Positions 5,576-29,900 of a DNA stretch of 64,000 nucleotides are shown piece by piece; the stretch's first letter is position 1, and the number at the start of each line of letters is the position of its first letter. The translations under genes and the position numbers were made by a program. Under the pieces are notes generated by a model. The model was not told the origin of the DNA and did not search any database. It was given only the letters and a program-made list of their open reading frames with translations. The DNA comes from Panopea generosa. Its lineage: Eukaryota; Mollusca; Bivalvia; Adapedonta; Hiatellidae. The stretch spans positions 24,519,184-24,583,183 of the forward strand of contig CM055896.1 in the NCBI GenBank assembly GCA_029582155.1. The letters are read 5' to 3'.

Positions 5576-7560
5576 ATATATGACATCCAGTTGTATAGAT
5601 GGTGAAAAACCGCAGACCTTATTACAGTTGTATACGACATCCAGTTGTATAGATGGTGAAAAACATCAGAACACATTACAGTTGTATATGACATCCAGTT
5701 GTATAGATGTTGAAAAACCTCAGAACACATTACAGTTGTATATGACATCCAGTTTATTGGTGGTGAAAAACTTCAGAACACATTACAGTTGTATATGACA
5801 TCCAGTTTATTGGTGGTGAAAAACTTCAAAACACATTACAGTTGTATATGACATCCAGTTTATTGGTGGTGAAAAACCTCAGAACACATTACAGTTGTAT
5901 ATGATATCCAGTTTATTAGTGATGAAAAACCTCAGAACACATTACAGTTGTATATGATATCCAGTTTATTGGTGATGAAAAACCTCAGAACACATTACAG
6001 TTGTATACGACATCCAGTTTATTGGTGGTGAAAAACCGCAGACCTCATTACAGTTGTATACGACATCCAGTTGTATAGATGGAAAAAAACATCAGAACAC
6101 ATTACAGTTGTATATGACATCCAGTTGTATAGATGGTGAAAAACCTCAGCAGTTGTATATGACATCCAGTTTATTGGTGGTGAAAAACCTCAGAACACAT
6201 TACAGTTGTATATGACATCCAGTTTATTGGTGGTGAAAACCCTCAGCGGTTGTAAATGACATCCAGTTTATTGGTGATGAAAAACCTCAGAACACATTAC
6301 AGTTGTATATGACATCCAGTTGTATAGATGGTGAAAAACCTCAGCAGTTGTATATAACATCCAGTTTATTGGTGGTGAAAAACCTCAGAACACATTACAG
6401 TTGTATATGACATCCAGTTTATTGGTGGTGAAAACCCTCAGCAATTGTAAATGACATCCAGTTTATTGGTGATGAATAACCTCAGAACACATTACAGTTG
6501 CATATGACATCCAGTTTATTGGTGGTGAAAACCCTCAGCAGTTGTAAATGACATCCAGTTTATTGGTGGTGAAAAACTTCAGAACACATTATAGTTGTAT
6601 ATGACATCCAGTTTATTGGTGGTGAAAAACCTCAGAACATATTACAGTTGTATATGATATCCAGTTTATTAGTGATGAAAAACCTCAGAACACATTACAG
6701 TTGTATATGATATCCAGTTTATTGGTGATGAAAAACCTCAGAGCACATTACAGTTGTATACAGCATCCAGTTTATTGGTGGTGAAAAACCGCAGACCTCA
6801 TTACAGTTGTATACGACATCCAGTTGTATAGATGGAAAAAAACATCAGAACACATTACAGTTGTATATGACATCCAGTTGTATAGATGGTGAAAAACCTC
6901 AGCAGTTGTATATGACATCCAGTTTATTGGTGGTGAAAAACCTCAGAACACATTACAGTTGTATATGACATCCAGTTTATTGGTGGTGAAAACCCTCAGC
7001 AGTTGTAAATGACATCCAGTTTATTGGTGATGAAAAACCTCAGAACACATTACAGTTGTATATGACATCCAGTTTATTGGTGGTGAAAACCCTCAACAGT
7101 TGTATATGACATCCAGTTTATTGGTGATGAAAAACCTCAACAGTTGTATATGACATCCAGTTTATTGGTGGTGAAAACCCTCAACAGTTGTATATGACAT
7201 CCAGTTTATTGGTGATGAAAAACTTCAGCAGTTGTATATGACATCCAGTTTATTGGTGATGAAAAACCTCAGAACACATTACAGTTGTATATGACATCCA
7301 GTTTATTGGTGGTAAAAACCCTCAACAGTTGTATATGACATCCAGTTTATTGGTGATGAAAAACCTCAGAACACATTACAGTTGTATATGACATCCAGTT
7401 GTATAAATGGTGAAAAACCTCAGCAGTTGTATATGACATCCAGTTTATTGGTGATGAAAGACCCCAGAATACTTTACAGTTTGTATATGACACCCAGTTT
7501 ATTGGTGATGAAATGCCTCAGAATACAATGTCATTACAGTTGTACATGACATCATGTTGA
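5576..7560. repeat. 53/54-bp minisatellite array
   Basis: About 40 head-to-tail copies of a 53- or 54-bp monomer starting GACATCCAGTTTATTGGTGG (variant TTGTATAGATGG), with a shorter ~42-bp variant lacking ACACATTAC. Spacings of 54, 54, 54 and 53 bp were read directly at 5581-5796. A 753-bp higher-order repeat is visible: the variant containing ACCGCAGACCTCATTACAG occurs at 6035 and 6788. Short open frames of period 18 residues on both strands are by-products of the 54-bp period and stop when a 53-bp unit occurs. Confidence 0.9.
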
Positions 7561-8809: not shown

Positions 8810-8990
8810 CTCTTCAATGACAGTCGAAATATCGTCCAAGCTTCTAACTTTGATATTAGATGTGCCAGCATCCATTGTCTTGGTCATTTTGGTGAGGTCA
8901 GGTTCTGAACATGTCCTAAGTAACTCACTGAATGCTATGTCAAAACTTCCCATGGTGATGCCAAGAACTAAACCTGTCTTGTGCTTCTCT
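8810..8990 (-). CDS. nek1: nek1-like exon 9 of window (TCSEPDL motif)
   Basis: Acceptor GTTTTCACAG lies at 8991-9000. The single leading A completes the GG left by the previous exon to give Gly. It encodes 60 codons beginning EKHKTGLVLG and containing FSELLRTCSEPDLTK, which resembles the LLIGLSTG...MLRTCSLPDLSK region of vertebrate NEK1. The proposed donor is GAG|GTTTGC, which is weak. A better-scoring GTTAGA lies 33 bases earlier in the exon (8837-8842), so the 3' end is uncertain. If GTTTGC is not used, the frame runs on to a stop eleven codons later, which would make this a terminal exon; the family's longer C terminus argues against that. Confidence 0.75.
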
Positions 8991-11900
8991 CTGTGAAAAC
9001 AAAACAACTAACCTCACACAATGTACATCAAATACATGAACCAATTTGCATAAATTGTTGATGTTATTTTCAATAGTAATAATCCACAGAATTTTGTACA
9101 GTACTGTTGTTAAACTGACATAGAATGCAGCACTGCATGTATTAAAAATGTTGTAGAAAATCTATGCCGTCCCCTAACATGAAATCCTGAATCAGTTGCA
9201 TACTTCACGTTGTATATTGTCCGGTATAAAACACTGGTTTAGTCTACCGCTTCATGTGCATGTTTGACCAAAACAATGTTTACCATTAAATCAAAAGAAC
9301 TTTCATATATTATTTATTCAGATAGTCTTCTATACTTTTCATATCCATTTATAAAGGAACAAAACTTACCTGTACCATGTGTACAGTACATGTAGGGGTT
9401 TGGTAAACTGTGTTTGTTGCATGTGAGTTCGTGTTCCCAAGATAATAACTTACCTGTACCATGTGTACATGTAAGGGTTTACTAAAACTGTGCATGTTGC
9501 ATGTGAGTTCATGATGTTCGCAAGATAATAACTCATCTGTACCATTGTGTACATGTAAGGGCTTTATTCAAACTGTGCTTGTTGCATGTGAGTTCATGTT
9601 CCCAAGATAATAACTTACCTGTACCATGAATACAGTACATGTAGGGGTTTGCTAAAATGTGCTTTTTGCATGTGCATTCATGTTCCCAAGGTAATAACTT
9701 ACCTGTACCATGTGTCCAGCACATGTAGTGGTTTGTTAAAACTATGTTTGATGCATGTTCATGTTCCAAAGATAATAACTAACTTGTACCATGTGTACCT
9801 GTAAAAGTTTGCTTTAACTGTGCTTGTTGTATATGAGTTCATGTTCCAAAGATAATAAATTACCTGTACCATGTGTACATGTAGGGGTTTGCTAAACTGT
9901 GCTTGTTGTATATGAGTTCATGTTCCCAAGATAATAACTTACCTGTACCATGTGTACATGTAGGGGTTTGCTAAAACTGTGTCTGTTACATGTCAGTTCA
10001 TGTTCCCTGGATAACAACTTACCTGTACCATGTGTACATGTAGGGGTTTGCTTAACTGTGCTTGTTGCATGTGAGTTCATGTTCTAAAAATAATAACTAA
10101 CCTGCACCATGTGTACATGTAGGGGTTTACTAAAACTGTGTCTGTTGCATGTCAGTTCATGTTCCCTGGATAACAACTTACCTGTATCATGTGTACATGT
10201 AGGGGTTTGCTAAACTGTGCTTGTTGCATGTTAGTTCATGTTCTAAAGATAATAACTTACCTGTACCATGTGTACATGTAGGGGTTTGCTAAACTGTGCT
10301 TGTTGCATGTGAGTTCATGTTCTAAAGATAACAATTTAACTGTACCATGTGTACATGTAGGGGTTTGCTAAACTGTGCTTGTTGCATGTGAGTTCATGTT
10401 CTAAAGATAATAACTTACCTGTACCATGTGTACATGTAGGGGTTTGCTAAACTGTGCTTGTTGCATGTGAGTTCATGTTCTAAAGATAATAACTTACCTG
10501 TACCATGTGTACATGTAGGGGTTTACTGAAACTATGCTTGTTGCAGGTGAGTTCATTTTCCAAGGATAATGACTTACCTGTTCCATGTGTACATGTAGCG
10601 GTTTACTAAGACTGTATTTCTGGCATATGACTTCATGTTCCCAAGATAATAACTTACCTGTACCATGTGTACAGTACATGTAAGGGTTTGCTAAAATTGT
10701 GCTTGTTTTATGCGAGTTCATGTTCCCTAGATAATAACTTACTTGTACCATGTGTACATGTAGGGGTTTGCTAAAACTGTGCTTGCTGCATGTGAGTTCA
10801 TGTTCTCACAATAATAACTTACCTGTATCATGTGTACATGTAGGGGTTTATTAAAACTGTGCCTGTTGCATGTCAATTCATGTTACCAGGGTAACAACTA
10901 ACCTGTACCATGTGTACATGTAAGGGTTTGCTAAAACTGTGCTTGTTGCATGTCAGTTCATGTTCTCAAGATAATAACTTACCTGTATCATGTGTACATG
11001 TAGGGGTTTATTAAAACTGTGTCTGTTGCATGTCAGTTCATGTTCCCAGGATAACAACTAACCTGTACCATGTGTACATGTAAGGGTTTGCTAAAACTGT
11101 GCTTGTTGCATGTCAGTTCATGTTCTCAAGATAATAACTACCTGTATCATGTGTACATGTAGGGGTTTATTAAAACTGTGCCTGTTGCATGTCAGTTCAT
11201 GTTCCCAGGATAACAACTAACCTGTACCATGTGTACATGTAAGGGTTTGCTAAAACTGTGCTTGTTGCATGTCAGTTCATGTTCTCAATATAATAACTTA
11301 CCTGTATCATGTGTACATGTAGGGGTTTATTAAAACTGTGTCTGTTGCATGTCAGTTCATGTTCCCAGGATAACAACTAACCTGTACCATGTGTACATGT
11401 AGGGGTTTGCTAAAACTGTGCTTGTTGCATGTCAGTTCATGTTCCCAGGATAACAACTTACCTGTACCATGTGTACATGTAGGGGTTTGCTAAAACTGTG
11501 CTTGTTGCATGTCAGTTCATGTTCCCAGGATAACAACTTACCTGTACCATGTGTACATGTAGGGGTTTACTGAAACTGTGCTTGTTGCAGGAGAGTTCAT
11601 GTTCCCATGATAACAACTTACCTGTACCATGTGTACATGTAGGGGTTTACTGAAACTGTGCTTGTTGCATGTCAGTTCATGTTCCCAGGATAACAACTTA
11701 CCTGTACCATGTGTACATGTAGGGGTTTACTGAAACTGTGCTTGTTGCATGTCAGTTCGTGTTACAAGGATAATAACTAACCTGTACCATGTGTAAAGTA
11801 CATGGAGGGGTTTGCTAAACTGTGCTTGTTGCATGTGAGTTCATGTTCCAAAGATAATTACTCACCTGTACCATGTGTACATGAAGGGGTTTACTAAAAC

Positions 11901-14900
11901 TGTGTCTGTTGCATGTCAGTTCATGTTCCCAGGATAACAACTTACCTGTACCATGTGTACATGTAGGGGTTTGCTAAAACTGTGCTTGTTGCATATCAGT
12001 TCATGTTACAAAGATAATAACTTACCTGTACCATGCGTAAAGTACATGAAGGGGTTTGCTAAAACTGTGCTTGTTGCATGTGAGTTCATGTTCCCAAGAT
12101 AATAACTTACCTGTATAATGTGCACATTTCATCAAAGGGTTTGCTAAACTGTGCTTGTTGCATGTGAGTTTATGTTCCCAAGATAATAACTTACCTGTAT
12201 AATGTGCACAATTCATCAAAGGGTTTGCTAAACTGTGCTTGTTGCATGTGAGTTCATGTTCCCTAGATAATAACTTACTTGTACCATGTGTACATGTAGG
12301 GGTTTACTAAAACTGTGCTTGTTGCATGTGAGTTCATGTTCTCAAGATAATAACTAACCTGTACCATGTGTACATGTAGGGGTTTGCTAAAACTGTGCTT
12401 GTTGCATGTGAGTTCATGTTCTCAAGATAATAACTAACCTGTACCATGTGTACAATACATGTAGAGGTTTGCTAAAGCTGTGCTTGTTGCAAATGAGTTC
12501 ATGTTCCCTAGATAATAATTTACTTGTGCCATGTGTACAGTACATGTAGGTGTTTGCTAAAACTGTGCTTGTTGCATGTCAGTCCATGTTCCCAAGATAC
12601 TAACTTACCTGTACCATGTGTACATGTAGGGGTTTGCTAAAACTGTGCTTGTTGCATGTCAGTTCAAGTTCAAAAGATAATAACTAACCTGTACCATGTG
12701 TACATGTAGGGGTTTGCTAAAACTGTGCTTGTTGCATGTCAGTTTATGTTCCCAAGATAATAACTAACCTGTACAATGTGTACATGTAGGTGTTTGCTAA
12801 AACTGTGCTTGTTGCATGTGAGTTTATGTTCCTCAGATAATAACTAACCTGTACCATGTGTACATGTAGGTGTTTGCTAAAACTGTGCTTGTTCCATGTG
12901 AGTTTATGTTCCCTAGATAAAAACTTACTTCTACCATGTGTACATGTAAGCGATGCTAAAACTGTGCTTGTAGCATGTGAGTTTATGTTCTCTAGATAAT
13001 AACTTACTTCTACCATATGTACATATAAGCATTTGCTAAAACTGTGCTTGTTGCATGTGAGTTTATGTTCCCTAGATAATAATTTACTTCTACCATGTGT
13101 ACATGTAAGTATTTGCTAAAACTGTGCTTGTTGCATGTCAGTTCATGTTCCCTAGATAATAACTTACCTGTACCATGTGTACATGTAGGGGTTTGCTAAA
13201 ACTGTGCTAATTGCATATCAGTTCATGTTCCCAAGATAATAACTTACCTGTACCATGTGTACATGTAGGCGTTTACTAAAACTGTGCTTGTTGCATGTGC
13301 ATTCATGTTCCCTACTAGGGCCCTAGATAATAACTTACCTTTACCATATGCACAATACATGGGGTTTGCTAAACTGTGCTTGTTAATAATGTGCACAATT
13401 CATCAAGGGGTTTGCTAAATTGTTTGTTACATGTTAGTTCATGTTCCCTAGATAACAACTAACCTGTACCATGTGTACATGTAGGGGTTTGCTAAAACTG
13501 TGCTTGTTGCATGTGAGTTCATGTTCCCAAGATAATAACTAACCTGTACCATGTGTACATTTAGGGGTTTGCTAAAACTGTGCTTGTTGCATGTCAGTTC
13601 ATGTTCCTTAGATAATGACTTACCTGTACCATGTGTACAGTACATGTACGGGTTTGCTCAAACTATGCTTGTTGCATGTCAGTTCATGTTCCCAAGATAA
13701 TAACATACCTGTACCATGTGTACATGTAGGGGTTTGCTAAAACTGTGCTTGTTGCATTTCAGTTCATGTTCCTAAGATAATGACTTACCTGTACCATGTG
13801 TACAATACATGTAGGGGTTTGCTAAACTGTGCTTGTTGCATGTGAGTTCATGTTCCCAAGATAATTACTTACCTGTACCATGTGTACATGTAGGGGTTTG
13901 CTAAACTGTGCTTGTTGCATGTGAGTTCATGTTCCCAAGATAATAACTTACTTGTACCTTGTGTACAGTACATGTAAGGATTTACTAAAACTGTGCTTGT
14001 TGCATGCGAGTTCATGTTCCCAAGATAATAACTTACTTGTACCTTGTGTACAGTACATGTAAGGATTTACTAAAACTGTGCTTGTTGCATGCGAGTTCAT
14101 GTTCCCAAGATAATAACATACCTGTACCATGTGTACATGTAGGGGTTTGCTAAAACTGTGCTTGTTGCATTTCAGTTCATGTTCCTAAGATAATGACTTA
14201 CCTGTACCATGTGTACAATACATGTAGGGGTTTGCTAAACTGTGCTTGTTGCATGTGAGTTCATGTTCCCAAGATAATAACTTACCTGTACCATGTGTAC
14301 ATGTAGGGGTTTGCTAAACTGTGCTTGTTGCATGTGAGTTCATGTTCCCAAGATAATAACTTACTTGTACCTTGTGTACAGTACATGTAAGGATTTACTA
14401 AAACTGTGCTTGTTGCATGCGAGTTCATGTTCCCAAGATAATAACTTACTTGTACCTTGTGTACAGTACATGTAAGGATTTACTAAAACTGTGCTTGTTG
14501 CATGCGAGTTCATGTTCCCAAGATAATACCTAACCTGTACCAAGTGTACATGTAGTGGTTTGCTAAACTGTGCTTGTTGTATGTGAGTTCATCTTCTCAA
14601 GATAATAACTAAACTGTATCATGTATACATGTAGGGGTTTGCTAAACTGTGCTTGTTGTATGTGAGTTCATGTTCTCAAGATAATAACTTACCTGTACCA
14701 TGTATACATGTAGGGGTTTGCTAAACTGTGCTTGTTGCATGTGAGTTGATGTTCTAAAGATAATAACTAACCTGTACCATGTGTACATGTAGGGGTTTGC
14801 TAAAACTGTGCTTGTTGCATGAAAGTTCATGTTCTCAAGATAATACCTAACCTGTACCATGTGTTCATGTAGGCATTTGCTAAAACTGTGCTTGTTGCAT

Positions 14901-17900
14901 GTGAGTTCATTTTTCCAGGATAAAAACTTACCTGTACCATGTGCACAGTACATGTATGGTTTTGCTAAAACTGTGCTTGTTGTATGTGAGTTCATGTTCC
15001 TAAGATAATAACTTACCTGTACCATATGTACAATACATGTAAGGGTTTGCTAAAACTGTGCTTGTTGCATGTGAGTTCATGTTCCCAGGATAATAACTTA
15101 CTTGTACCATGTGTACATGTAAAAGTTTGCTAAAACTGTGCTTGTTGCATGTGAGTTCATGTTCCCTAGATAATAACTTACTTGTACCATGTGTACATGT
15201 AGCAGTTTACTAAAACTGTGCTTGTTGCATGTGAGTTCATGTTCTCAAGATAATAACTAACCTGTACCATGTGTTCATGTAGGCATTTGCTAAAACTGTG
15301 CTTGTTGCATGTGAGTTCATGTTCCCTAGATAATAACTTACTTGTACCATGTGTACATGTAGCAGTTTACTAAAACTGTGCTTGTTGCATGAAAGTTCAT
15401 GTTCTCAAGATAATACCTAACCTGTACCATGTGTTCATGTAGGCATTTGCTAAAACTGTGCTTGTTGCATGTGAGTTCATTTTTCCAGGATAAAAACTTA
15501 CCTGTACCATGTGTACAGTACATGTATGGTTTTGCTAAAACTGTGCTTGTTGTATGTGAGTTCATGTTCCTAAGATAATAACTTACCTGTACCATATGTA
15601 CAATACATGTAAGGGTTTGCTAAAACTGTGCTTGTTGCATGTGAGTTCATGTTCCCAGGATAATAACTTACTTGTACCATGTGTACATGTAAAAGTTTGC
15701 TAAAACTGTGCTTGTTGCATGTGAGTTCATGTTCCCTAGATAATAACTTACTTGTACCATGTGTACATGTAGCAGTTTACTAAAACTGTGCTTGTTGCAT
15801 GTGAGTTCATGTTCTCAAGATAATAACTAACCTGTACCATGTATACATGTAGGGGTTTGCTAAAACTGTGCTTGTTGCGTGTCAGTTCATGTTCCCAAGA
15901 TAAAAAGTAACCTGTACCATGTGTACATGTAGAGGTTTGCTAAAACTGTGCTTGTTGCGTGTCAGTTCATCTTCCCAAGATAACAACTTACCTGTACCAT
16001 GTGTACATGTCGGGGTTTGTTAAAACTGTGCTTGTTGCATGTCAATTCAAGTTCCCAAGATAATAACTAACCTGTACCATGTATACATGTAGGGGTTTGC
16101 TAAAACTGTGCTTGTTGCGTGTCAGTTCATGTTCCCAAGATAAAAAGTAACCTGTACCATGTGTACATGTAGAAGTTTGCTAAAACTGTGTTTGTTGCAT
16201 GTGAGTTTATGTTCCTAAGATAATAACTTACCTGTACCATGTGTACATGTAGGTGTTTGCTAAAACTATGCTCATTGCATGTGAGTTGATATTCTCAAGA
16301 TAATAACTAACGTGTACCATGTGTACATGTAAGCGTTTGCTAAAACTGTGCTTGTTGCATGTCAGTTCATGTTCCCTAGATAATAACTTACCTGTACCAT
16401 GTGTACATGTAGGGTTTTGCTAAAACTGTGCTTGTTGCATGTGCGTTCATGTTCACTACTAGGGCCCTAGATAATAACTTACCTTTACCATATGCACAAT
16501 ACATGGGGTTTGCTAAACTGTGCTTGTTTATAATGTGCACAATTCATCAAGGAGTTTGCTAAAACTGTGCTTGTTGCATGTGAGTTCATGTCCCTAAGAT
16601 TATAAATTACCTGTACCATGTGTACATGTAGGGGTTTGCTAAACAGTGCTTGTTGCATGTGAGTTTATGTTCCCTAGATAATAACTTACCTGTACCATAT
16701 GTACAATACATGTAGGGGTTTGCTAAACTGTGCTTGTTGCATGAGAGTTGATGTTCCCAAGATAATAACTTATCTGTACCATGTGTACATGTAGGGGTTT
16801 GCTAAAACTGTGCTTGTTGCATGTGAGTTCATGTCCCTAAGATAATAACTTACCTGTACCATGTTTACAATACATGTAGGGGTTTGCTAAACTGTGCTTG
16901 TTGCATGAGAGTTGATGTTCTCAAGATAATAACTTACCTGTACTATGTGTACATGTAGGGGTTTGCTAAAACTGTGCTTGTTGCATGAGAGTTGATGTTC
17001 CCAAGATAATAACTAACCTGTACCATGTGTACATGTAGGGTTTTGCTAAAACTGTGCTTGTTGCATGAGAGTTCATGTCCCTAAGATAATAACTTACCTG
17101 TACCATGTGTACAATACATGTAGGGGTTTGCTAAACTGTGCTTGTTGCATGAGAGTTGATGTTCTCAAGATAATAACGAACCAGTACCATGTGTACATGT
17201 AGGGGTTTGCTTAAACTGTGCTTGTTGCATGAGAGTTCATGTTCTCAAGATAATAACTAACCTGTACCATGTGTACATGTAGGGCTTTGCTAAAACTGTG
17301 CTTGTTTTATGAGAGTTGATGTTCCCAAGATAATAACTTACCTGTACCATGTGTACATGTAGAGGTTTGCTAAACTGTGCTTGTTGCATGAGAGTTGATG
17401 TTCCCAAGATAATAACTTGCCTGTACCATGTGTACATGTAGGGGTTTGCTAAAACTGTGCTTGTTGCATGAGAGCTCATGTTCTCAAGATAATACCTAAC
17501 CTGTACCATGTGTACATGTATGCCTTTGCTAAAACTGTGCGTGTTGCATGTGAGTTCATTTTCCCAGGATAATAACTTACCTGTACCATGTGTTCATTGT
17601 AGGCATTTGCTAAAACTGTGCTTGTTGCATGAGAGGTCATGTTCTCAAGATAATACCTAACTTGTACCATGTGTACATGTAGGCATTTGCTAAAACTGTG
17701 CTTGTTGCATTAGCGTTCATGTTCCCTACTAGGGCCTTAGATAATAACTTACCTGTACCATATGCACAATACATCAAGGGGTTTGCTAAACTGTGCTTGT
17801 TGCATGTCAGTTCATGTTCCCAAGATAATAACTTACCTGTATAATGTGCACAATACATCAAGGGGTTTGCTAAACTGTGCTTGTTGCATGTGAGTTCATG

Positions 17901-20900
17901 TTCCCTAGATAATAACTTACCTGTATAATGTGCACAATTCATCAAGGGGTTTGCTAAACTGTGCTTGTTGCATGCGAGTTCATGTTCCCTAGATAATAAC
18001 TTACCTGTATAATGTGCACAATAAATGAAGGGGGTTGCTAAACTGTGCTTGTTGCATGTGAGTTCATGTCCCCTAGATAATAACTTACCTGTATAATGTG
18101 CACAATTCATCAAGGGGTATGCTAAACTGTGCTTGTTGCATGTGAGTTCATGTTCCCTAGATAATAACTTAAAGGAGTTTAGTGAAGGAGATTCTTCACA
18201 AATATAAATATTTACTCTTACCCTTGTAGTGACAATGCCTTCACTGCCACTTTGTCACCATTTTTGTCAGCTTCCTTCTTATCAGCTGTGTTTTCCTCTT
18301 CTTCCTCCAGTTCCACCTTCTCAAACAGGTTACCAGCACCTTCCCTCTTTACAAATTCTGGCTGACTTGTAGATTCTATAAGACAATACATTGCTTTATA
18401 ATATTAAATAAAACATGAGTAAATGTGCCACAAACTATGTGTCAATTAAGAACAAGAGGCCCAAGATGGGCCTAAGTATGGACTAAGCTTATGAAGAACT
18501 TATAGTTATAGATGAGATAAATGAGAATTAAATGTTTTCTCATAGCATTTCCATATAAAGTGAGTCACCCTACTGGGCTCCAATGGACCCTTGCCCCTAA
18601 TTTCAAGCAGACTCCAACATACTAGCATTTGAAGAAAAAAAATACGGCAGTATCAGAATGAATGAATAGGGTTTTACGGCGTACCAACACACTATAGGTT
18701 ATTCGCCGCCAACAGGAAGGAAGATTCCAGGTTCACTCTACATGTACAAAAACAACAAATTAACATACAGATTAAAAAAAATACATCAACAAATGAATAT
18801 GCAGAATGAACCTAGAACCTTGATACCTGCAGAACTGCAGAGTTTCAGCAAATTCTATCGGATTACTCAATTTGTTGCTTCTTACGACATGCATAAGCCA
18901 CTGTGATCCTATTCTTGCCATCACTCATGGCTCTCTGGAACCACACAGGGGTTGATAATTTAACCACAATAGTGAACATGACAAAAAATGATAAAATGAA
19001 CATGACACCCATTCGAAGGATTCCTACCCCTCTGCAGAGATTGACAGTGATTCTATTCTTAGCCGGAACCACACGGGCTGGCAGTATCAGAAAATTCCAA
19101 TCTTATGTATAGGTAGACATTTACTTTGAAATGGGGGTGGGAGTTGGGGGGATGGGGGGGGGGGGGGGGGGGGAGGGTAGGACATGGTTTAAACCTATAC
19201 ATGTTAATTTATCGAACAGAAACAACAGCGAAAAAAAAGTATAAACTCTTAAACAAAATTTTTGACTTTCAACATTTTATCCCTTTTTGGGTCCCTGCTG
19301 GCCCTTTATGGATATTAAATGCCCTTTAAAGGTCTCGGGCTCAGCTGTTTAATAATGGCTTAACAATACTCCAGACCTCAAGATGATTAAAATATTTCCT
19401 AAAATAACTGATAAAAATAGAATTTACTGTTTTTCATTAGTAATTGTATGTAAAAATCAGTCCCCTTTAATGGATCCCAATAGATCCTAGCCCCTTCATT
19501 TGAACAAACATGAAACCTCTACTCATAGGAATCATTTATACGAAATATAAACAAATTTGGCTGAACAGATTGAGATGTTATATGGTGTTTAGCGTCGCTT
19601 TCAACAATTTTTCAGTCATATCGCGATGGTGTCTACTTGAGACAGTATACCGAGCACTGTCACACTGGAGTATAATGCCATAGACACATGGTATAATACC
19701 CCACCCAGTCACATTATAATGACACCGGGCGGACCAGACCTAGAACTTTCCTCTTAATGCTGAGTGTCAAGCGAGGAAGCTTCTAGTACCATTTTTTAAG
19801 TCTATGGTATGACCCGGTCGGGGATCAAACCCACAATCTTCCGCATGCGAGGCGGCCACTCTACCACCAGACCATGCTGTGGTCTAGTTCTTGAGAAGAT
19901 CTCTTTTTGGGCCCCTGCTAAATGTTCCAAACCTGAAGATAATTGAATAATACCATAAATCTCTGCTTATAAAACGCACTCAAGTATAATCCGAAGGTGA
20001 TTTTGAAGCCGAAACTGGTCGAAAAAAGCTAGTACACGTCTATTATTCGCAGGCATGAATCAGATGAATCAGTTGTTTACTACATCCGCCATTTTGAAAT
20101 CTGGACCAAAGTGAAAGATGAATTTTAATTGGCTAATTATGGAGTAACGAAATCTAGACTGGTGTATGCACAACTTTGTAAAAACGTACGTAAAATGTTT
20201 TGATGTGATGTATAGCGTGTTATAAGAAACAATAAAATTTGTGAGTATAAAATGGTGTTACCATTTATATATGTGTATTTTGGTAAGACAAAAGGGAAGT
20301 CTCATCATAGTAGTCCGTTTCTGATGTTGGTTTTTCCAAGTCGGCTGGGGGATCCTGCGTTATCAACCCCTTCTCACCCACCAGGTTCTGAACAACTACT
20401 CAAATGTGTCACTATTGCCACATGTCAAACGGTATTCGTCAATTAGTTTCAATTAACAGAGTGATGTTCTGACAGCAGTAAAGGACGCGGAAAGTACAAG
20501 TGGGCGGAGTCCTGCAAAATTTTCTTGTCCCAAATTTTTAAACTAGTTTTGTGTTATTCTTAATCAATAAACTGATAATAATTATTCATAATTGTAAAAA
20601 AAAATGAAATTGTAGTAATATCAATATTTTCATATATATTTCTTTATTACATTAAACCCCATACAATTATCCCGTAAAAATAGTGAGTTAAACAGATGTT
20701 GAATTATACTTCTACCAGTCTAGTTAATAAATTGATGACTTCCGGTTTAGCGAAAAGTTTTGTTGTTTTCCCATTTGGAAGTTACATGATACACAATAAT
20801 ACATCAAAGGGTTTGTAAACTGTGTTTATTTAATAGAAATAATAAAATATAAAGCATGTAAGACATGTTTAAAACTTTGTGTGCTTTTTGCACTACGTTC

Positions 20901-23900: not shown

Positions 23901-26900
23901 ATATAATTTCTGTCTTAAACTTTTTTATGTCACATCAAAGTTCCAGTGTCACAGTGCAACAATTTTATCTTGGCCCACGTTGAAATAGAAATATATTTTA
24001 TCCATGGTAAAAATGCGAGTATCTTTATACAGTATGCAAAAGTATTAAAGTTTCATACTTATATTCATGTAGATAAATTTCAGAAATTTTAAGTGAAAAA
24101 TTATATAAAAATGCTGTGTATCCGTTTAAGATGGTAACTGGCAGTACAAAATGAGACGCAAGCAACAAGTTGTCTAGTAAATTACAATCATCACAGAATA
24201 ATTATTTGTCAATTTTCATAAACAAAATCATTGTACATCTTTATCTGTAAACTTTTGTAGCAAATACAATGCATATTATGGTAAATACTTGTAATGTATT
24301 TGGTATTATTATTAAAACTACCTCACAAAGTTCAATATTTAGACAGTTGCTGACTAAAAATTATACCTTTAGCTATATTTTCATCAACAGTTCGTATTGT
24401 GATTGTCCCTTTTCTAATTGGAGTCTTTGGAATGGTGATTGTAGACCCCACAGCAGATGGTGTTGGGCTTTTATCTGTCGATGCAGGGGAACCAATACTG
24501 TCACCTGCAACATTTGTTTGTGTAAACTTTATTAAAAAGGTAGGCAGTGTTTACATTCCATTATCATCTACAGTCAATTAAATGTAATGATTGAGAACCA
24601 AACCATGTAGACTCAGGTCAGACTACGTTACTCATAGGTACAATATAGTCTTGTTGTTTGTAAATTGTATCAATGGTAATTTGGTCATGTTAAGCAACAG
24701 GAAAGTCATAATATGCCAGTAGATCTATATCATTATTTTATATAAATGTAAAGAGGGTAAAAATGTGTATGTGTAAAGTTCAGGTTGATATCTTTTCCTA
24801 CTTGAGGCCTATGTAATCCACGGACATAAAGGAGAAACACATAATTTGGAAGAAAGTATTATTGAAATGTTCTGCGAAAAATGACAACACTTTTTAGTGA
24901 AAGTAGAGCACTATACTCACAAGATTATAAAAGAAACATATATTTTTTGGTACAAGTTCACATGTTTGACTACCGGTATATGCAATACGAAATTGATTTG
25001 TCAAACAGGTGTTCTTTACATGCAATGCGTAAAATTGCTTTCAATTAATTTCAATAATTTTAAGTCTAACAACTGTATTTGCATTCATGCCTAATTACCA
25101 AGAAATTCATTCTCAAGTTCTTTAACAGAATATTTCAATAGTTCCATTTTATAGTAACTGTTTTTATTGACATATGGACATGTTATATGGACATGTTATA
25201 TGCTTGGTTATGTAATAAACTAAACTCTTTTGTGAATTGCTCTCCAGTCCATTTCATTGGTAAAACCAGTATTGTTAATAACAAGTCATTGGGTCAAGAC
25301 TAAAATCCAACCGGCAACCTCTGGCATCAATGGTAAACACCCTTTCCATTTCATCTGCTTTATCTAATTCTATTTTTAATATAAGACACAGTAGCTTCCG
25401 TTTTAGGACACCTGTTGACAGCACTTCATCCTTTCCAAATAACGATACTTTGAATTATCATGCCTATAAAAAGTTAGATTAATACCAAGAAGTCAAAGTC
25501 AATGCAACATCTCTAAATTTGATTTATTACTAGCTTAGGTGACTTCTGCTAATGCAAACCCCTTTAAAGTCAATTGGAGTAATGCTAGCTGTGGTGACTT
25601 CTACCAATGAAAACCTCTTGAAAGTCACTTGATTTATTGCTAGCTGTAGTGACTTCTCCCAATGTAAACCCTTTAAAGTCACAAGATTTATTGCTAGCTG
25701 TGGTGACTTCTCCCAATGTAAACCCTTTAAAGCCACATGATTTATTGCTAGCTATGGTGACTTCTCCCAATGGAAACCTCTTGAAAGTCACATGATTTAT
25801 TGCTAGCTGTGGTGACATCTCCCAATGTAAACCCTTTAAAGTCACTTGAATTAATGCTAGCTGTGGTGACTTCTACCAATGAAAACCTCTTGAAAGTCAC
25901 TTGATTTATTGCTAGCTGTAGTGACTTCTGCCAATGTAAACTCTTTAAAGTGACATGATTTATTGCTAGCTATGGTGACTTCTCCCAATGGAAACCTCTT
26001 GAAAGTCACTTGATGTATTGCTAGCTATGGTGACTTCTCCCAATGTTAACCCATTAAAACCACTTAATTTATTGCTAGCTATGATGACTTCTCCCAATGA
26101 AAACCTCTTGAAAGTCACTTGATGTATTGCTAGCTATGGTGACTTCTCCCAATGTTAACCCATTAAAACCACTTAATTTATTGCTAGCTATGATGACTTC
26201 TCCCAATGAAAACCCTTTAAAGCCACATGATTTATTGCTAGCTATGGTGACTTCTCCCAATGGAAACCCCTTGAAAGTCACTTGATTTATTGCTAGCTGT
26301 GGTGACATCTCCAAATGTAAACCCTTTAAAGTCACTTGATTTATTGCTAGCTATGGTGACATCTCCCAATGTAAACCCTTTAAAGCCACTTGTTTTATTG
26401 CTAGCTATGGTGACTTCTCCCAATGTAAACCCTTTAAAGCCACTTGATTTATTGCAAGCTGTGGTGACATCTCCCAATGTAAACCCTTTAAAGCCACTTG
26501 ATTTATTGCTAGCTATGGTGACTTCTCCCAATGGAAACCTCTTGAAAGTCACTTGATTTATTGCAAGCTGTGGTGACTTCTCCCAATGTAAACTCTTTAA
26601 AGTCACTTGATTTATTGCTAGCTATGGTGACTTCTCCCAATGTAAACCCGTTAAAGCCACTTGATTTATTGCTAGCTATAGTGACTTCTCCCAATGGAAA
26701 CCTCTTGAAAGTCACTCATTGTATTGCAAGCTGTAGTGACTTCTCCCAATGTAAACTCTTTAAAGTCACTTGATTTATTGCTTGCTATGGTGACTTCTCC
26801 CAATGTAAACCCTTTAAAGCCACTTGATTAATTGCTAGCTATGGTGACTTCTCCCAATGTAAATACTTTAAAGCCACTTGAATTATTGCTAGCTGTGGTG

Positions 26901-29900
26901 ACCTCCCAATGAAAGCCCTTTAAAATCATTTGATTTATTGCTAGATGTGGTGACTTCTCCCAATGTAAACCCTTTAAAGTCACAAGATTTATTGCTAGCT
27001 GTGGTGACTTCTCCCAATGTAAACCCTTTAAAGCAACATGATTTATTGCTAGCTATGGTGACTTCTCCCAATGGAAACCTCTTGAAAGTCACATGATTTA
27101 TTGCCAGCTGTGGTGACATCTCCCAATGTAAACCCTTTAAAGTCACTTGAATTAATGCTAGCTGTGGTGACTTCTACCAATGAAAACCTCTTGAAAGTCA
27201 CTTGATTTATTGCTAGCTGTAGTGACTTCTGCCAATGTAAACCCTTTAAAGTGACATGATTTATTGCTAGCTATGGTGACTTCTCCCAATGGAAACCTCT
27301 TGAAAGTCACTTGATGTATTGCTAGCTATGGTGACTTCTCCCAATGTTAACCCATTAAAACCACTTAATTTATTGCTAGCTATGACAACTTCTCCCAATG
27401 AAAACCCTTTAAAGCCACATGATTTATTGCTAGCTATGGTGACTTCTCCCAATGGAAACCCCTTGAAAGTCACTTGATTTATTGCTAGCTGTGGTGACAT
27501 CTCCAAATGTAAACCCTTTAAAGTCACTTGATTTATTGCTAGCTATGGTGACTTCTCCCAATGTAAACCCTTTAAAGCCACTTGTTTTATTGCTAGCTAT
27601 GGTGACTTCTCCCAATGTAAACCCTTTAAAGCCACTTGATTTATTGCAAGCTGTGGTGACATCTCCAAATGTAAACCCTTTAAAGCCACTTGATTTATTG
27701 CTAGCTATGGTGACTTCTCCCAATGGAAACCTCTTGAAAGTCACTTGATTTATTGCAAGCTGTGGTGACTTCTCCCAATGTAAACTCTTTAAAGTCACAT
27801 GATTTATTGCTAGCTATGGTGACTTCTCCCAATGTAAACCCTTTAAAGCCACTTGATTTATTGCTAGCTATAGTGACTTCTCCCAATGGAAACCTCTTGA
27901 AAGTCACTCGTTTTATTGCAAGCTGTAGTGACTTCTCCCAATGTAAACTCTTTAAAGTCACTTGATTTATTGCTTGCTATGGTGACTTCTCCCAATGTAA
28001 ACCCTTTAAAGCCACTTGATTAATTGCTAGCTATGGTGACTTCTCCCAATGTAAATACTTTAAAGCCACTTGAATTATTGCTAGCTGTGGTGACCTCCCA
28101 ATGTAAACCCTTTAAAATCACTTGATTTATTGCTAGATGTGGTGACTTCTCCCAATGTAAACCTTTAAAGTCACTTGATTTATTGCTAGCTGTGGTGACA
28201 TCTCCACATGTAAACCCTTTAAAGCCACTTGATTTATTGCTAGCTGTAGTGACTTCTCCCAATGTAAACCCTTTAAAGTCACAAGATTTATTGCTAGCTG
28301 TGGTGACTTCTCCCAATGGAAACCTCTTGAAAGTCACATGATTTATTGCTAGCTGTGGTGACATCTCCCAATGTAAACCCTTTAAAGTGACATGATTTAT
28401 TGCTAACTATGGTGACTTCTCCCAATGTAAACCCTTTAAAGTCACTTGAATTAATGCTAGCTGTGGTGACTTCTACCAGTGAAAACCTCTTGAAAGTTAC
28501 TTGATTTATTGCTAGCTGTAGTGATTTCTCCCAATGTAAACCCTTTAAAGTCACATGATTTATTGCTAGCTGTGGTGACTTCTCCCAATGGGAACCTCTT
28601 GAAAGTCACTTGTTTTATTGCTAGCTATGGTGACTTCTCCCAAAGTTAACCCTTTAAAGCCACTTGATTTATTGCTAGCTGTGGTGACATCTCCCAATGT
28701 AAACCCTTTAAAGCCACTTGATTTATTGCTAGCTATGGTGACTTCTCCCAATGTAAACCCTTTAAAGCCACTTGATTTATTGCTAGCTTTGGTAACTTCT
28801 CCCAATGTAAATCCTTTAAAGCAATTGAATTATTGCTAGCTGTGGTGACCTCCCAATGTAAACCCTTTAAAATCACTTGATTTATTGCTAGATGTGGTGA
28901 CTTTTCCTAATGCAAACCCTTTAAAGTCACTTGATTTATTGCTAGCTGTAGTGATTTCTCCCAATGTAAACCCTTTAAAGTCACATGATTTATTGCTAGC
29001 TTTGGTGACTTCTCCCAATGGAAACCTCTTGAAAATTCACTTGTTTTATTGCTAGCTATGGTGACTTCTCCCAAAGTTAACCCTTTAAAGCCACTTGATT
29101 TATTGCTAGATGTGGAGACTTCTCCCAATTTTAACCCTTTAAAGTCACTTGATTTATTGCTAGCTGTGGTGACTTCTCCCAATGGAAACCTCTTGAAAGT
29201 CACTTGATTTATTGCTAGCTGTGGTGATTTCTCCCAATGTAAACCCTTTAAATCCACTTGATTTATTGCTAGCTGTGGTGACTTCTCCCAATGTAAACCC
29301 TTTAAAGTTACATGATTTATTGCTAGCTATGGTGACATTTCCCAGATTATGTTAAATATTATCACATCTGCCATGGAGACTTGAAACATTTTCTGATTTA
29401 TGTTATATATTATCACATTTTAAAATGTATTTTAAAATCCCTAAATGTAAGACAAAGTTACAGATCAATTGTTGATCAATTGAGCAAAGTGTTTTTGAAA
29501 TCCATCCATATATAATAAAGTTAAAGGACGGACTTGAAATCTCAAACAGATTCAAAGTGTTGTCATACATATTAAAAGTGTGACCATGACCTTTGAGGTA
29601 TGGGTCTAAGTTTTACTTATGACACGTCGTGATGTCATCTTGATAAATTCAGCCAAGTTTAAGGCCGTGTAAAGGCAAAGTCACAGACCAGACACACAAT
29701 ATCAAACAAATTGAAAGTGTGTCCTTGATCTTTGAGGAAAGGTTCTGGGTCTTACATGGGACACTTAATTATATCATGTTGATCAACTGAACCAAGTGTT
29801 TTTAAAATTTATCCATAGATGACGGACAAGAAATGTCAAAATGACTGAAAGTGTTGACAAAGTTAAATTGTAACCTTTGAAGTGGAAGTTTGGGTATTAA

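Follow-up and report, generated by a model that had tools for sequence, protein, structure and literature searches.

A minisatellite with a unit of about 80 bp, in which most copies carry a 5′ splice site motif, fills nearly all of one intron in the 64,000-nucleotide (nt) stretch of the Panopea generosa genome analysed here (the window; contig CM055896.1, positions 24,519,184 to 24,583,183; all window coordinates below count from its first letter). The array lies on the minus strand at 9363..18172, and we conclude that it probably arose where it now lies, in a single intron of a single gene, by tandem duplication of a unit that by chance held a strong 5′ splice site. Amplification would then have multiplied this site about a hundred times. 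Other arrays in this genome also carry donors, and the window array is one of this wider set; about half of these arrays start where a real exon has its donor.

The host intron occupies 8991..18221 on the minus strand (9,231 nt), and 95% of it (8,810 nt) is array; without the array it would measure 421 nt, so that the array represents an approximately 20-fold enlargement. Upstream lies a coding exon at 18222..18375 (minus strand), which ends in ...KALSLQ plus two bases and whose acceptor, TATAG at 18376-18380, was placed by eye. Its 5′ splice site, AGG|GTAAGA (18216..18224, minus strand), was assigned from the sequence and from the frame that joins across the intron. The downstream coding exon, at 8810..8990 (minus strand), begins after the acceptor TTTTGTTTTCACAG, and its far end, GAAGAG|GTTTGC, was likewise placed by eye. 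When joined, the exons ending at 18222 and starting at 8990 remain open in one frame, which bears out the claim of an earlier sequence-only reading that the array sits within an intron with its motif on the sense strand. Reading past the upstream exon into the intron meets an immediate stop (GGG TAA), and the same holds if the first array donor is used. The sequence-only reading had also placed the U1-binding sites a few tens of bases beyond the real donor; this is true of the array edge, which is separated from the donor by a 49-nt spacer (18173..18221, minus strand) sharing, without gaps, only GTAAG with the unit, but not of the nearest array donor to have GT: this site, CAG|GTAAGT in its perfect form, lies at 18083..18091 (minus strand), 133 nt from the real one. 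The host gene gave no Pfam match above the cut-off among the window exons tried, and "nek1-like" is the label of the sequence-only reading, drawn from the window sequence.

The extent of the array rests on Tandem Repeats Finder (TRF), on a chain and alignment of the units, and on genome matches. TRF reports the array as pieces, from 9363 to 18171, and the array was cut at 108 donor-phase starts, in agreement with the 9366..18170 first proposed for it. On the minus strand, the consensus unit starts with GTAAGTT and ends with TACAG, giving ACAG|GTAAGTT at the boundary between units. The 107 intervals between unit starts measure 80 nt in 55 cases, 79 in 15, 84 in 15, 85 in 13 and other values in nine. 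The description of about a hundred consensus U1 sites is accurate for the consensus boundary and for the GT, present at 101 of the 108 donor positions, but too generous for the full site, since GTAAGT occurs at 65/108 and the perfect CAG|GTAAGT at only 50/108; GTTAG accounts for 26/108. After the perfect form, the most frequent donor 9-mers are CAG|GTTAGT (19) and CAA|GTAAGT (11), the rest being other forms. Judged by duplex energy, 53 of the 108 array donors bind the U1 9-mer as strongly as the real donor, scored with one extra 5′ base, or more strongly. Over the 107 aligned monomers, mean identity to the consensus is 0.928 for the whole unit and 0.917 for donor positions −3 to +6. TRF also gives longer periods of 164 and 244, and a recent block duplication, seen by eye, repeats units 14851-15101 as 15421-15671, both of which favour an origin by tandem duplication. 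Of 20,000 shuffled 80-mers, 36 contained, on one strand or the other, a 9-mer that matches U1 at 9/9 positions; although this array was picked out after the fact, this frequency makes one such array unremarkable in a genome rich in arrays.

A search of the 1.47-Gb assembly (39 contigs) with a 39-base monomer pattern, allowing up to three mismatches, gave 57 matches, all 57 of them in the window array and on the minus strand. Similarity searches of the genome with a 167-base and a 1-kb query agreed (51/51 and 12/12 matches in the array); each scores only the best candidate region, one per search, so that the pattern count is the firmer result, and more diverged copies would escape. One exact monomer pattern each, run against the viral and the prokaryote collections, had zero matches, and an Rfam scan at the gathering threshold led nowhere. 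At the sensitivity used, the array is thus a single-locus minisatellite and not a dispersed satellite. The sequence-only reading had supposed a satellite with other genomic loci, for which a sense bias in introns could be sought, and only the window array was found. With the 57/57 and 51/51 genome matches in one array, and with the viral and prokaryote patterns unmatched, a dispersed satellite or transposable element with sense bias in introns is the least credible of the explanations considered.

We examined whether the donor motif is more conserved than the rest of the monomer, as the sequence-only reading had suggested. Among the 80 circular windows of the alignment (107 monomers), donor positions −3 to +6 ranked 51st for conservation by entropy, and GTAAGT alone ranked 55th, with a mean entropy of 0.399 bits compared to 0.345 bits for the whole monomer. 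Variation is greatest at donor position +3, which is A in 74 monomers, T in 31 and G in two, with the T variants spread along the array; on the monomer tree, no other position of the unit changes as often (15 changes). Counting changes on the tree, 54 of the 80 windows changed less often than −3 to +6, and 67 of the 80 changed less often than GTAAGT. Selection on the donor motif was therefore rejected, as neither the entropy ranks nor the tree-based counts show extra constraint. Hence, the functional reading of the donor motif is unsupported: GTAAGT varies as much as other bases, a result that the sequence-only reading had itself taken to count against function.

Several observations weigh against so plain an account. 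With position +3 set aside, conservation of the donor is a little above average (mean entropy 0.313 compared to 0.345 bits), a difference that we do not defend as a signal. The donor is also intact enough, with 50/108 perfect and 101/108 retaining GT, that conservation alone cannot exclude function, and since whole monomers are 0.93 identical to the consensus, homogenisation could mask weak selection. Finally, placement by chance alone leaves unexplained why the array edge and the real donor are just 49 nt apart.

This proximity favours an origin from the intron's own donor, as in nine other arrays described below, with the likeness to the unit later lost by deletion or drift. A similar layout is found in another array, L082, in which 74 nt separate the donor of a VWA-like exon (Pfam E-value (E) 0.006, below the curated cut-off) from the first array donor and whose unit, as in the window array, lacks exon sequence. 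In alignments run against every third unit pair, the exon end together with the intron start scored 40 against the unit, compared to a shuffle mean of 31.5, and 8 of 200 shuffles scored as high. However, the exon end alone was equalled by 124/200 shuffles, at least 10 of 200 random window pieces also reached 40, and without gaps the likeness shrinks to 6/10 nt on the exon side and to GTAAG (5/5) on the intron side. The intron part alone was matched by 21/200 shuffles, and no likeness to the unit emerges from the downstream flank (64 and 79 of 200). We regard such an origin as doubtful, although it is the strongest of the alternatives; the array may be an old donor-born array, or it may have been seeded on an intronic cryptic donor. 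As a separate observation, the window array and L069 (C3:16466300-16467900), otherwise unrelated and 8 Mb apart, have in common the 17-mer ACATGGTACAGGTAAGT around the donor.

The remaining alternatives give the array a role in splicing or transcription. The array could be dual-specific and self-healing, with GT...AG units spliced out singly or in blocks, by recursive or nested splicing, so that the messenger RNA (mRNA) is unchanged and the array can grow; units end in AG|GT in 82/108 cases and in YAG in 85/108. Recursive (ratchet) splice sites have the consensus of a polypyrimidine tract followed by YAG|GTRAGT, and the unit ends depart from it in their low pyrimidine content: the fraction before the unit-end AGs averages 0.50 (maximum 0.625), compared to 0.56-0.81 before nine inferred acceptors, by a crude measure whose ranges overlap. 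Moreover, one of the arrays described below (L092) grew from a TGT|GTAAGT donor, so that AG|GT is not required for such an array, and we consider self-healing growth unlikely here. The proposed micro-exon, TTTTAG followed by 28 nt and ACAG|GT, does exist as a geometry in the 80-bp consensus, but as a spliced product it is highly improbable, since 28 nt, not being divisible by three, would disrupt the reading frame, and since the pyrimidine fraction before the 87 TTTAG sites is 0.42. Slightly less remote, but still very unlikely, is a U1 platform, in which the array sites would recruit the U1 small nuclear ribonucleoprotein (snRNP) against premature polyadenylation (telescripting) or titrate it. 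The 50 perfect U1 sites are compatible with this, as is a 53-bp array (5577..7527, minus strand; TRF and motif count) that begins 1.8 kb downstream of the end of the window array and holds 30 AATAAA, all of them on the sense strand. Nevertheless, the array richer in AATAAA, a 54-bp one at 25519..29344 (minus strand; same methods) with 58, likewise confined to the sense strand, precedes the U1 sites in transcription order, and the donor is not conserved above its surroundings, which leaves both U1 titration and suppression of polyadenylation, as the sequence-only reading had put them forward, unsupported. A single locus is in any case unlikely to titrate an snRNP as abundant as U1. The presence of AATAAA on one strand in two other window arrays indicates instead that arrays multiply whatever motif the first unit held. 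Duplication in place thus accounts best for the window array, together with the most modest option first offered for it, that it is simply tolerated, given an unconstrained donor and weak acceptors. The true donor would be fixed by its exon, no strong acceptor would be available within the array, and accidental AG|GT splicing within the array would not alter the mRNA.

To place the window array among others, the whole genome was searched for three perfect CAGGTAAGT at a spacing of 69-99 bases, which gave 573 matches; those listed cover contigs C1 to C3 and part of C4. Grouped by hand, C1 to C3 hold 21 such arrays including that of the window, with monomers that are unrelated by eye. Control triples gave 292 matches for TGAATGGAC, 554 for GTGACAAGT and 750 for the reverse of GTGACAAGT, and we thus rejected a clear excess of the donor motif in arrays by matches; as single motifs, CAGGTAAGT occurs 16,114 times and the controls 12,171, 13,309 and 15,873 times. 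By loci in C1 to C3, TGAATGGAC gave five, two of them an inverted near-duplicate pair, and GTGACAAGT gave 12 loci of seven kinds; compared on locus counts, 21 versus 5 gives P 0.01 and 21 versus 12 of seven kinds gives P 0.2. A two- to fourfold excess of donor-array loci is therefore possible, resting on two controls. Triples of AAGGTAAGT gave 569 matches and the reversed control 465.

We then looked at the flanks of these arrays, on the upstream side in the sense of the motif, for the 20 other arrays of C1 to C3 and one of C4; the array edge was reached in 20 and was not reached in L081/L093. Taking only upstream flanks biases sense over antisense exons by design, and nothing is drawn from that excess. 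In nine of the 20 arrays, the first unit starts with a coding exon's own GT, so that the array begins right at that exon's donor: L069, L073, L074, L075, L076, L084, L088, L090 (with L072) and L092 (with L085). The exons were called by eye, before the homology tests, and their limits were inferred from the sequence. Beyond the donor, all nine show a match to the next unit that extends over 33 to 100 bases of intron. On the exon side, at least 10 bases of the exon end recur in the unit in eight of the nine, with ungapped identities of 58/60 in L084, 31/34 in L075, 17/20 in L069, 15/16 in L088, 11/11 in L092 (fewer in some later units), and 10/12 in both L076 and L074; for L073 the next unit gives 7/7 and the one following it 28/33, and L090 has only 6/6.

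In five of these exons (L092, L090, L075, L073 and L076), homology to known proteins reaches, or nearly reaches, the residue before the donor. The L092 exon matches TRPC5 over 78/78 residues (E 6e-33), the L090 exon matches a chain named Helicase-like protein over 43/43 (E 4e-17), which we take to be of the Mot1/BTAF1 type, and the L075 exon matches neurobeachin over residues 2-33 of 33 (E 1e-8). That of L073 matches Pfam Cadherin_3 over residues 8-58 of 59 (E 3e-8), and that of L076 the PGAP2IP nuclease domain over residues 4-35 of 35 (E 1.6e-7). The L074 exon matches leucine-rich repeat structures when taken as a whole (E 1.6e-8), although no single stretch passes, L088 has a weak match to NDEL1 over the first 16 of 32 residues (E 0.014), the match of L084 to a PX-domain protein is not significant (E 0.11), and the exon of L069 has no Pfam match. 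Two further arrays are probably donor-born, both judged by eye: L071, after a possible non-coding first exon that follows a TATA-like box, and L091 (with L083), after a short signal-peptide-like exon with 29/34 exon-side identity to a later unit.

L086 and L087 each have an exon-like open frame on the opposite strand, which by eye resembles a coiled coil in L086 and an acyl-CoA synthetase in L087; neither frame has a significant Pfam match. The L087 array (C2:12324500-12326400) seems, by eye, to abut the acceptor of that frame, and arrays may thus also grow from 3′ splice sites. No exon was seen at the upstream edge of six arrays (L070, L077, L078, L079, L080 and L089). At L079 (C3:80569500-80571400), what appears by eye to be a mariner-like element stands directly at the edge of the CAGGTAAGT array.

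The base rate was taken from contig C1, using the 10 single CAGGTAAGT sites that head its list. Three of the 10 are likely donors: L097 and L100, both by eye and with no Pfam match, and L101, where a match to 26S proteasome subunit 7 covers residues 2-32 of 32 and ends at the junction (E 3e-12). Among the others, L094 reads as a B-box on the other strand, L095 is by eye a near copy of L094, and L099 was not assigned. L102 and L096 (C1, around 897222 and 68835) each have a single CAG|GTAAGT after a pyrimidine-rich tract, with no long open frame, and resemble recursive splice sites. A preference of arrays for donors as birthplaces finds no support in these counts, since 9/20 does not differ from 3/10 (Fisher P 0.69), nor does 11/20 (P 0.26). 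In summary, arrays beginning at real donors are found repeatedly and have been retained, and we do not claim that arrays are attracted to donors.

A related arrangement is that of the human IFI6 minisatellite, whose short repeat unit is said to span an exon-intron boundary and which is reported to supply several splice donors in one transcript. The window array is similar in that a sense-strand 5′ splice site motif recurs in its units, in the numbers given above, and differs in being wholly intronic, with a unit that lacks the exon end (6/10 on the exon side); the nine donor-born arrays fit the IFI6 layout better. Duan et al. 2024 (PMC10809524) describe AGGT dual-specific splice sites in tandem repeats, for example in UBC, and propose that splicing hides the expansion; the donor-born arrays resemble this kind of array as well. 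The window units are likewise bounded by AG|GT in 82/108 cases, whereas the UBC units are coding and shown to be spliced, and the window units are intronic and were read from sequence alone. PMC2812944 describes variable repeats where exons meet introns in duplicated human genes, and the point in common with it, as apparently with PMC4974935, is that tandem duplication at splice boundaries alters gene structure; there, new introns arise from repeats, whereas here an existing intron was enlarged about 20-fold. Among the open-licence papers surveyed on minisatellites with splice donors, bivalve satellites, introners and tandem intron gain, splice sites and U1 in repeats, and telescripting, none was seen to describe donor-born minisatellites as a genome-wide set.

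Taken by itself, the window array is mainly deflating: a striking motif, ordinary repeat growth, one place, and no detectable selection on the motif. Its value is that it leads to natural introns with multiple donors, which recur in this genome. We tentatively suggest that donor-spanning minisatellites could form a recurrent, genome-wide class here, in which tandem duplication across real 5′ splice sites would create many equivalent donors in conserved genes, AG|GT boundaries would make most of these arrays splice-silent, and introns would grow cheaply from their 5′ end; the window array would be an old member. By resemblance, the exons named for this class belong to TRPC channels, a presumed Mot1/BTAF1-type helicase, neurobeachin, NDEL1, PGAP2IP and Cadherin_3 proteins. 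What makes a spliceosome choose one 5′ splice site when many good ones are on offer is an old question, for which engineered duplications have been the usual material. This genome gives natural cases, conserved genes in which one exon has several strong, near-identical donors in a row behind it and in which splicing presumably has to remain correct, and its arrays illustrate a concrete route to intron lengthening.

A further repeat came to light elsewhere on contig C1, where similar copies of a 79-bp repeat lie about 78 kb apart (C1:9730969-9732003 and C1:9809358-9810548). Its unit seems to hold a whole 25-nt GT...AG stretch between coding-like parts.

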